64,000 bases of DNA from positions 62,001 through 126,000 of the forward strand of contig NZ_AVSQ01000013.1 of assembly GCF_000685395.1 (NCBI RefSeq), written 5' to 3'. The first letter of the stretch is position 1. Each line of letters starts with the position of its first letter. Under the pieces are notes generated by a model, which was not told where the DNA came from, ran no database searches, and saw only the letters and a program-made list of their open reading frames with translations. Positions 31,603 to 35,566 of the stretch are shown here, piece by piece. This DNA comes from Candidatus Nitrosotenuis chungbukensis. GTDB taxonomy: Archaea > Thermoproteota > Nitrososphaeria > Nitrososphaerales > Nitrosopumilaceae. A program made the position numbers and the translations under genes.

Positions 31603-33516
31603 ATGTTGGAACAAACAGACATCAGCTGGCTAATTGGTGGGCCACAGGGAAGCGGGGTAGAATCTGGAGCTAACATATTTTCCCGAGCATGTGCTGCAAT
31701 GGGCTATGAGATCTTTGGGAAAAGAGAATTTTATTCTAACATAAAGGGCGAGCACAGCTATTTTGTTGTCCGGGTGTCAAACAATGCGATTCACTCAAAC
31801 ATCAACGACGTAACACTGATGGCCGCATTTGACGCAGAGACAATTTTTCGGCATGCAGACGAAGTAATCAAAAACGGCGCGATAATCTACGACTCTGATC
31901 TTGTTGCCACCAAAGTTGACGAGGTCCATAACATGGATCTCAACTACAAGCAAAGATTGCTAAAGTATTTGGACTCTAAAAACAAACCGTACACAATTCA
32001 GGGAATTTTAGATATTGCGCAAGAGCGCGGCGTTAATCTGTATCCTGTATCTTTTAGAAATGTTTTGTCTACAATGGCAGACGAGGTAAACAATCCCCGA
32101 CTCAAAGGAATGGTGAGGATGTTCAATGTGCTTGGAGTCTCGTTCTCACTTGGCGTGCTTGGAATGCCTCCTGAGACACTGCTTAGCTCAATTGATGCGA
32201 TTTTTGCAAAAAAGCAAGCCATTGCGGATCTTAACAAAAAAACAGCAAATTATGCGTATAATTTTGCCACTGCAAAGTTTCCGAATTTTACGTATCGTCT
32301 AAAGCAAGTTGAGAAAAAACCTGGCACCATCCTGGTTCAGGGATACCAGGGAACTGCGCTTGGCAAAATGGTCTGTGGCTGCAGATTTCAGCCGTACTAT
32401 CCGATCACCCCCGCCTCTGATGAGAGCGTCTATTTGGAATCAAACGAAATTTTAGATGTCAAGGAAAACAGGCCTGGCTCAACTGTTGTGGTACAAACAG
32501 AAGATGAGATATCTGCAATGGGGATGACGATTGGGGGTGCACTAACAGGTACCCGTTCAGCAACCTGCACGTCTGGTCCAGGGTTTTCACTTATGGCAGA
32601 AATGCTGGGATGGGCAGGAATCAACGAGGTTCCAGTTGTAATTACTCTGTATCAGCGAAGTGGACCGTCCACCGGGTTACCTACACGACACGGTCAGGAT
32701 GATCTAATGTTTGCAATCTATGCAGGACACGGCGAATTTCCGAAAATGGTTTATGCGTCAGGCGACATCGAGGAAAGCTTCTATGATACTGGAAGATGTT
32801 TTAACTATGCTGACATCTATCAAGTCCCAGTCATCCACATGATGGACAAGTTTCTGGCAAGCTCTGTAGTTACATGCAAGAGGTTTGATTCTGATAAAAT
32901 AACAATTAACCGAGGAAAACTCTTGGATAAAATTGAGGGAGACTACAAGAGGTTTGCTTTTGTCCCAGATGGGATCTCTCCAAGGTCAAAACTTGGGCTT
33001 GAAAATGGCATATTTTGGAATACTGGCGACGAAAGTGATGAGTTTGGCCACATATCCGAAGATCCTGAAATTAGAATAAAGAAAATGGACAAGCGATACT
33101 CCAAACTGGACTACATGCTAAAAACAATGCCTCAAGAGGAGCAGGCAGTATCGTATGGAGTATCTGACTACTGTGTTGTGAGCTGGGGCTCCACAAAGGG
33201 CCCGATTCTTGATGCAATTGACATGCTAAAAAAAGAAAATATCAACATAGGATTCATCCAAATGAAACTACTTCATCCATTCCCAACTGACTATATCAAA
33301 TCGTTACTGAAAAATGCCAAAACAATAATTGACATTGAGGCAAACCAGACAGGTCAGCTCGGACTGCTTTTAAAGCAAAACTTGGAACACAGTCCTGATT
33401 ACTATATTCTAAAATACACTGGAAGGGCAATGACTTCAACAGAATTGTACGATTCACTAAAAAACATAATAGCAAACAAGGCCGAAAAAAGGCAGGTACT
33501 AACTCATGGCGCTTAA
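31603..33516 (+). CDS. korA: 2-oxoacid:ferredoxin oxidoreductase, fused gamma-alpha subunit
   Basis: 637 residues. The gamma domain (about 1-200) starts with [24 protein letters not shown]. The alpha domain begins near residue 245 with [30 protein letters not shown] and carries [15 protein letters not shown]-type and [19 protein letters not shown] motifs. With KorB it oxidises 2-oxoglutarate, pyruvate or other 2-oxoacids with CoA and reduces ferredoxin, and can run in reverse. The gamma-alpha fusion is the archaeal OFOR form. It overlaps korB by eleven bases. Confidence 0.95.
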
Positions 33517-35566
33517 GATAGGTGACTACAAAACCGAGGTACACAACGACTGGTGTCCTGGATGCGTACTGCCTGACACTTTACTTCACTGCAATCCCTC
33601 GGTGAAACAAATACAACAAGTCAGCGTTGGAGAGCGAGTTCTTGGAAGAGATGGCCTTTACCATAGGGTGAGCGAAGTTATGGCACACATTCATAGGGGA
33701 AAAGTTTTCAAGATTATGACAAAATGTTTTGGAGCAACATATCTTACGGATGAACACCCTGTCCTAATAGTAAGACGTGAACATCAAAAACGACACAACA
33801 AAAAATTTGATGCCGTTTGGACAAGAGCAGACGAAATCAAAACAAAAGATTATCTTGTATATCCTGTTCAAAAAGAACAAATTGACAGAGAGTTTATTGA
33901 TGTCGATTATCAATTAAAGAAAAAAGACACCGTAAGCAAAGATCTGCCAAACAAAATTCCGCTCAACGAGGATACTCTGAGACTAATGGGATACTATATT
34001 GCGGAAGGACATGTGCATGAACGAGAGATTTGTTTTACATTTAACTCAAAAGAAGTCGAATTCATAAATGATGTTGAAAATATCATGCTGCAAACGTTTG
34101 GTCTAACTGGAACGGAAACTACCAAAAGAAATGTAACGACCATTTCATTTTATTCGGCACCACTTGCAAGGATATTTTTAGATTGGTTTGGACACAAATC
34201 ATACAACAAAAAAATACCGCATTTTGCAATGCTTCTTCCTGCCATGAAGCAAAAAGAACTGATCAAAGGATTGTGGCGCGGGGATGGCTGGTTAAGCACT
34301 GAACAAATACGTGGCAATTTCAAGACTGTTTCAAAGACCCTGTCTGAACAGCTAAAATCCTTGTTGCTAAGACAGGGAATTGTACCAATAATTTCTGTTG
34401 CCAATGCAAAAGGCATTCACAGAGAATCGTATTCGATTCAGATTGTAAACGATCGTGATTTTGCAATACTGTGTAAAATACTAGATGAGAAGATGGAACC
34501 AAAAAACCATGTTGGAAAACCCCCATCATCCGTACTCACACCTGACTATGTAATGATCCCAATCAAAAAAATTGAAAGTTTTGACTATGATGGCCCAGTA
34601 TACAACCTAGAAGTTGACGATGTTAACTCTTACGTAAGCGAAAACGCAATCTTGCATAACTGTGGTGATTTTGGTATTGTCAATGCAATACAGATGGCGC
34701 TATCCGAAATGCAGATACCTCGACACCAAGCCGCAATATTTTCTGGAATAGGGTGCTCTGGCAAGACATCTCACTTCATCAACGTGTACGGTGTCCATAC
34801 TCTGCATGGGCGAGTTCTGACATTTGCACAGGGCGCAAAGCTTGCAAATCCGGATATGAAAATCATTGCAGCGGGTGGTGACGGAGACGGGCTTGGAATA
34901 GGGGTGGGTCATTTTATCGCAGCCGGTAGGCGAAACTTGGATCTAACATACATCATATTTAACAACGGAGTTTACGGACTTACAAAGGGGCAGGCATCTC
35001 CAACACTGCGGCTGGGAGAAAAAACAAAATCACTGCCAACCCCAAACACAAACTACAACGTCAATCCAATCGGCCTTGCGATTACAAGCGGGTTTACCTT
35101 TGTCGCGCGTGGATATGCGTATGACGTGAGGCATCTAAAGGATCTCATTATAGCAGCGGTGAACCACAAAGGTCTTGCATTTCTTGACGTTTTACAGCCA
35201 TGTCCTACATACAACGACATCAATACCCGTGACTGGTATTCTGGGATGGATAATCTGGACGAATCAAAAAAACAGCACTCACGAATCTACAAGCTTGAAG
35301 ATACAGGATATGATCCAGTGGTTCATTATGACTCTGAAACGGAATTTAACGAAAAATTAACACAGGCACTAATCAAATCTCTAGAATGGGACACTAAAAT
35401 CCCAACTGGCATATTTTATAAAAATGAAATAATCAGCCAATATGAAAAGAGAATCATGGATAAAATTCCAAACTATATGGAAAACCCGCCATCCTCGCAG
35501 GTCGTCTCATCAAATGGCAAGCCAACTACTGACATATCAAAAATTTTAGATTCCATGTCTGTTTGA
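33506..35566 (+). CDS. korB: 2-oxoacid:ferredoxin oxidoreductase beta subunit, interrupted by an in-frame intein
   Basis: 686 residues before splicing and 320 after. The N-extein (residues 1-19) ends in NDWCPG, and the C-extein resumes at residue 386 with [14 protein letters not shown], restoring the conserved WCPGCGDFG motif. The thiamine diphosphate site [21 protein letters not shown]...[11 protein letters not shown] lies near residues 454-495. In solved archaeal OFORs the two Cys of WCPGC bind the [4Fe-4S] cluster, so the enzyme should be inactive until the intein leaves. It forms the catalytic half of KorAB. Confidence 0.95.
33563..34660 (+). mobile_element. KorB intein with LAGLIDADG homing endonuclease (366 residues)
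   Basis: All standard intein blocks can be read. Block A is [11 protein letters not shown] at the first residue (Cys1). Block B is [13 protein letters not shown] with the TxxH motif. The first LAGLIDADG helix is [11 protein letters not shown] (near KorB residue 160) and the second is [11 protein letters not shown] (near 252). Block F is [13 protein letters not shown], and block G ends ILHN followed by Cys+1 of the extein. His-Asn before a Cys nucleophile is the canonical class 1 end. Both endonuclease acidic residues (Glu in AEG, Asp in GDG) are present, so it could still cut. Confidence 0.95.

Follow-up and report, generated by a model that had tools for sequence, protein, structure and literature searches.

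MoaA is a radical-SAM iron-sulfur (Fe-S) enzyme, and Callahan et al. reportedly described a redox trap in the MoaA intein of P. abyssi in 2011. In this oxygen-labile host, a native cysteine at position -3 pairs with the first residue of the intein, Cys1, and oxidation blocks the first splicing step; Cys-3/Cys1 pairing has the same effect in an engineered Ssp DnaE construct (PMC3922620, PMC10663303). The intein of M. tuberculosis SufB has been reported to be sensitive to ROS and RNS (PMC8891592, PMC6195587), and not all class 1 inteins respond to oxidants (PMC6195587). The intein analysed here interrupts KorB, the beta subunit of a 2-oxoacid:ferredoxin oxidoreductase (OFOR), and lies in a stretch of 64,000 nucleotides from Candidatus Nitrosotenuis chungbukensis (the window), to which all positions below refer. 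Its features, and those of the genes around it, are as follows.

31603..33516, + strand: korA, alpha subunit of 2-oxoacid:ferredoxin oxidoreductase (NF041170, 2.9e-271, over cut-off; ORF list)
33506..35566, + strand: korB precursor gene, 686 amino acids plus stop (open frame, Pfam, NCBIfam)
33506..33562, + strand: N-extein, 19 residues, the last being WCPG (sequence; empty-site relatives)
33563..34660, + strand: class 1 intein with LAGLIDADG homing endonuclease, 366 residues (Pfam, alignment, AlphaFold model, fold matches)
33563..33583, + strand: block A, CVLPDTL, with Cys1 (C20 of the precursor; invariant in 42 inteins)
33746..33757, + strand: block B, TDEH (Thr62 and His65, both invariant)
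33977..34009, + strand: first LAGLIDADG motif, 11 residues (Pfam, alignment)
34259..34288, + strand: second LAGLIDADG motif, 10 residues (Pfam, alignment)
34589..34633, + strand: block F region, 15 residues (Pfam, alignment)
34643..34660, + strand: block G, NAILHN, with terminal Asn366 (invariant)
34661..35563, + strand: C-extein, TPP-binding part of KorB (TPP_enzyme_C, PFO_beta_C)

The end of korA and the start of korB share 11 bases. NCBIfam identifies the korB product as an archaeal OFOR beta subunit and PorB_KorB, with the match beginning at residue 385 (TIGR02177 is over cut-off for KorB and NF041171 is just below, at 419.8 bits against a cut-off of 423), and the Pfam domains of the C-extein are TPP_enzyme_C and PFO_beta_C. 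A second KorB that could back up the interrupted copy was sought by searching the genome for PorB/KorB and TPP_enzyme_C, and was rejected: korB is the sole OFOR beta gene found (a single TIGR02177 match), and the remaining TPP_enzyme_C matches are a 563-residue frame on contig C20, presumably of the acetolactate-synthase type, and one match below the cut-off. As KorB is single-copy in the genome, the enzyme depends on the intein splicing out. No further copy of the KorB intein was found in the same genome. The genome (G000, 98% complete) encodes an archaeal AmoA and its nearest named relatives are Nitrosopumilales MAGs, on which grounds the host is very probably an ammonia oxidiser, and probably an aerobic one.

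The insertion comprises residues 20-385 of the precursor, between WCPG and CGDFG, and its removal restores WCPGCGDFG. A reading made from the sequence alone (the sequence-only reading) had placed a 366-residue insertion at 33563-34660 inside WCPGC, with C17 and C386 on either side, exactly where we find them, and the Cys1, TxxH (here TDEH), two LAGLIDADG helices, HN end and Cys+1 that it listed in the KorB frame are all present. Pfam recovers Intein_splicing (PF14890) at 4.7e-11, over cut-off, and two LAGLIDADG_3 stretches at 1.1e-15, and each LAGLIDADG motif has its acidic residue (YYIAEG and WRGDG). Cys1, Thr62 and His65 of block B and the terminal Asn366 are invariant in 42 aligned inteins from several hosts; 13 other KorB inteins align end to end with that of the window, and the +1 residue is Cys in all KorB inteins. 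An AlphaFold model of the intein with eight flanking residues per side has a pLDDT of 88.8 and a pTM of 0.89 (that of the whole precursor was poor, with a pLDDT of 60, and was left out of the junction geometry). Its closest PDB folds are the TliVMA and PhoVMA inteins and PI-SceI (E 3.7e-24), which share the Hint domain and LAGLIDADG endonuclease but have V-type ATPase hosts and only 13-18% identity. By every testable feature the KorB element is thus a class 1 LAGLIDADG intein, and its observation is far beyond chance. Judging from its sequence, the intein almost certainly splices actively, and this copy likely homes actively as well.

The cysteines that bear on the Fe-S cluster are listed below.

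33554..33556, + strand: Cys17, predicted first cluster ligand of CPGC, at position -3 to the intein (alignment to 5B46/5B48; PMC5020499)
34661..34663, + strand: Cys386, +1 splice nucleophile and second Cys of CPGC once spliced (sequence; alignment; PMC5020499)
34754..34756, + strand: Cys417, probable third cluster ligand, GIGCSGK (invariant in 14 precursors)
35201..35203, + strand: Cys566, probable fourth cluster ligand, LQPCPTYN (invariant in 14 precursors)

The last two are taken to be ligands from our knowledge of the family. Spliced KorB aligns over its length with the S. tokodaii OFOR b subunits 5B48 and 5B46, and Cys17 and Cys386 fall on Cys12b and Cys15b of the S. tokodaii CXGC loop, the pair that ligates the [4Fe-4S] cluster (PMC5020499). 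From this alignment the KorB CPGC is predicted to be a [4Fe-4S] ligand pair, in agreement with the earlier claim that the intein parts two cysteines whose counterparts bind the cluster in solved relatives. A +1 residue with two roles is not new, the Mg-coordinating P-loop Ser of the M. smegmatis DnaB intein being a precedent (PMC6195587).

In the precursor the junction reads Cys17(-3)-Pro-Gly-Cys1 (C20), i.e. CPGC. The PDB chains 3NZM and 4GIG, which we take to be the engineered Ssp DnaE redox-trap entries, have CPG directly before Cys1 and so carry the identical tetrapeptide (CPGC was read from the PDB chains matched by an Ssp DnaE query). The Ssp DnaE trap is a laboratory construct in an unrelated small intein without an endonuclease; the junction of KorB occurs in nature. 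The intein of P. abyssi MoaA resembles that of KorB in combining a native Cys at -3 with Cys1; its host is another enzyme, and the trap has been tested in MoaA and is inferred in KorB. The M. tuberculosis SufB intein is also of class 1, of similar size, with Cys1, Cys+1, an endonuclease domain and a host in an Fe-S pathway, but this host is an Fe-S assembly scaffold, and the site and phylum are different. Since the KorB junction is the same as that of the redox trap, redox-sensitive splicing is a reasonable prediction, and by analogy a redox lock operating in vitro is plausible, at about even odds. Redox sensitivity had already been proposed by the sequence-only reading, and this part has published precedents; the trap chemistry on record is that of Cys-3 and Cys1 (C17 and C20 in KorB), rather than that of Cys386, as had been suggested. 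We consider the position of Cys17 at -3 to Cys1 the more important relation. Every KorB has Cys-3, which serves as a cluster ligand; the lock is therefore a product of the site, and CPGC cannot be taken as a sign that a switch was selected. In a sufficiently reducing cytosol the trap might never close.

Our preferred reading, to which we assign a probability of roughly 80%, is that a mobile class 1 intein has been placed precisely before the second Cys of the KorB WCPGC, with what would be a built-in redox lock as a by-product of the site. The Hint domain would excise the intein through formation of a thioester at Cys1, transfer to Cys386, cyclisation of Asn366 and ligation; this would restore WCPGCGDFG, after which the [4Fe-4S] cluster could form. 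Oxidation would probably link Cys17 to Cys1 in the precursor and stop the first step. The intein would persist by homing into a DNA site that is fixed by coding for cluster ligands, and the lock would, as far as shown, be a consequence of this site and not an evolved switch.

The distribution of the intein is patchy. It is found at the KorB site in 11 of the 250 genomes of the family, in five genera (KorB itself is encoded by 236, so that 11 of these 236 carry it), and the same site is also occupied in two other families of the order and in one genome outside it (3 genomes). Relatives without the intein carry the exact empty site. In a KorB extein tree of 50 rows, intein presence needs at least 9 changes, 8 of which are forced by supported branches. 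The KorB of genome G223 (L125) has an empty site in a protein 99.1% identical to that of the window; no co-conversion tract was found around the site between G000 and G223, the 6.5 kb flanks being evenly about 90.6% identical in DNA. The inteins of the window and of L006 (pair L003/L006) are 83% identical and their exteins 77%, and a pair of inteins closer than their hosts suits horizontal movement, though this is not a formal test. Values of dN/dS for the pairs in which they can be estimated, many intein pairs being saturated, are 0.03-0.11 for the whole intein, and reach 0.12 in the endonuclease part of a close pair. One KorB intein, that of L013 (1501-2571, minus strand), has lost both endonuclease acids (IAEG to LVAGG and GDG to GNG) and keeps every splice block. 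It is a natural splicing-only derivative, and its sequence has the pattern expected where splicing is needed and homing is not. From these patterns the KorB intein is seen to behave as a mobile element, and its history is the usual one for homing inteins in conserved positions; inteins in general occupy conserved sites, where homing sites cannot be lost (PMC2814812).

Phages were considered as carriers and rejected: a single-sequence scan of viral contigs confirmed no phage or virus carriers, and an alignment scan and tblastn against phages returned only distant inteins, mostly of 20-27% identity, with a few short or weak matches that were higher. The plasmid matches listed cover only the C-extein part of OFOR beta genes, and no plasmid record has a place that covers 80% of the query.

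The patchy presence, the sister with a 99% identical KorB and no intein, and the general preference for sites from which homing targets cannot be lost (PMC2814812) are accommodated by a purely selfish intein, which splices fast and constitutively in all conditions met, so that KorB supply is independent of the CPGC junction. This explanation has only slightly less than an even chance; against it, the exact CPGC tetrapeptide traps another intein, so that insensitivity in KorB would want a reason.

In the intein tree, the KorB inteins of both lineages form one group (support 100/96), the sister of which consists of inteins in the Fe-S scaffold IscU/NifU (98/93). These sister inteins, from the same phylum (L030 1219-2358 and L031 1501-2640, both on the minus strand), likewise lie directly before a conserved Fe-S Cys (GNP[V/I]/CGD), but in another host and without Cys at -3. 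In the wider clade (89/82), 15 of 17 rows are at Fe-S ligand cysteines (among them NuoI-type, ABCE1 and B12 radical SAM) and two are not (Hel308 and MetK). Resemblance to the KorB intein was part of the basis on which rows of the tree were picked, and Pfam and NCBIfam were used to confirm the hosts. A cysteine at -3 occurs in KorB, at two NuoI-type sites, in two radical-SAM types, and in Tes, ABCE1 and CdhA; IscU, one NuoI-like site and every listed non-Fe-S host lack it. Where relatives of the KorB intein are inserted, 6 of 12 host sites are Fe-S sites, compared with 2 of 33 in a Pfam-based census (p 0.002; host-site lists drawn by eye); when the comparison is confined to Cys+1 sites, significance is lost (6/10 against 2/9, p 0.17). 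Given this last value and the by-eye lists, we do not claim an enrichment of Fe-S sites, and regard it as a pattern to test only. It would be a bold and rather improbable step to propose that this archaeal lineage (KorB, IscU, NuoI, ABCE1 and B12 radical SAM) has specialised on Fe-S ligand cysteines, and that, its sites usually being CxxC, most copies have a ready-made Cys-3/Cys1 lock that holds oxygen-labile Fe-S proteins inert until cluster assembly suits.

Several further inteins stand before Fe-S ligand cysteines with a Cys at -3, giving CxxC in the precursor: L085 (CdhA), L044 and L047 (ABCE1/RLI), L036 and L037 (B12 radical SAM), L040 (radical SAM), and L049, L100 and L134 (Tes). The inteins of the tetraether lipid synthase Tes (NF045703, NCBI-curated) precede the third Cys of the radical-SAM CxxxCxxC, where Cys-3 and Cys1 form a CxxC as in KorB; they differ in host and fall outside the KorB-intein clade of the tree. 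In L100 and L134 the Tes intein is about 220 residues shorter than in L046 and L049, which would fit a loss of the endonuclease.

Conditional splicing could instead have evolved for the benefit of the host, which would hold back KorB, an oxygen-labile enzyme, in inert precursor form for as long as the cytosol is not reducing. An argument of this kind has been published for MoaA (PMC10663303), related inteins recur at Fe-S ligand cysteines, and the presence of an archaeal amoA makes the host probably an aerobic ammonia oxidiser. However, few KorB-bearing genomes in the family keep the intein, there is no sign of retention for the host, and archaeal OFORs without a ferredoxin domain are relatively oxygen tolerant (PMC5020499). 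The intein-less sister indicates that conditional splicing can be dispensed with. Evolved conditional splicing is hence unlikely, and it is similarly doubtful that the KorB intein exerts physiological redox regulation; the earlier proposal of a switch in central metabolism loses ground with the rarity of the intein and its absence beside a near-identical KorB.

A further rival builds on the sequence-only reading: splicing and cluster building would draw on the same thiol, that of Cys386, and iron, zinc or copper bound there would regulate splicing. Cys386 is placed for both roles (sequence, alignment, PMC5020499), and many inteins are inhibited by divalent metals (PMC4031507). Such competition is nevertheless very improbable: the cluster needs four ligands in the folded mature protein, two of which the intein separates before splicing, and it is Cys-3 and Cys1 (C17 and C20 in KorB) on which the known trap chemistry relies. 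Least credible of all is that the intein is inactive or the region misassembled and the cell lives without intact KorB: the same intein occurs in independently assembled genomes and named MAGs, and its catalytic residues are all intact, its frame open and under purifying selection.

The sequence-only reading knew of no described intein at this KorB site, and a literature search of open-licence papers likewise yielded none describing a KorB intein or one inserted at this site. The novelty lies in the host and its insertion site, in a CPGC junction that is natural and in the relationship to the IscU inteins, the element itself being an ordinary class 1 LAGLIDADG intein. If the junction works like its 3NZM twin, as the preferred reading of a built-in lock would have it, KorB provides a naturally occurring CPGC redox lock in an enzyme of core metabolism. 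As one of two nearly identical hosts has the intein and the other lacks it, the importance of conditional splicing to a cell could be tested cleanly, and the related inteins at Fe-S ligand cysteines provide a set of comparable natural junctions.

Other inteins were seen in the course of this work. PorB, which is also an OFOR beta subunit, has a different intein at its TPP-site motif, YMN/TGIQRSG (L156, L174 and L230; identified as PorB by NCBIfam for L156 and by sequence for L174 and L230), and OFOR beta genes are invaded at two cofactor sites, the Fe-S site of KorB and the TPP site of PorB. L014-L019 and L021, from several Nitrosopumilaceae, have inteins at GGH/C in an apparent UDP-sugar dehydrogenase family (host by eye). 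Inteins at MGLGK/T in SNF2-like helicases (by eye) are found in the same genus and a neighbouring one (L080, L082, L086, L088, L089, L091 and L098). Lastly, L228 and L231 carry inteins before a conserved Cys of an apparent endonuclease IV (LDT/CHAY) and thymidylate synthase (PP/CTIRLWF), with the hosts again assigned by eye.
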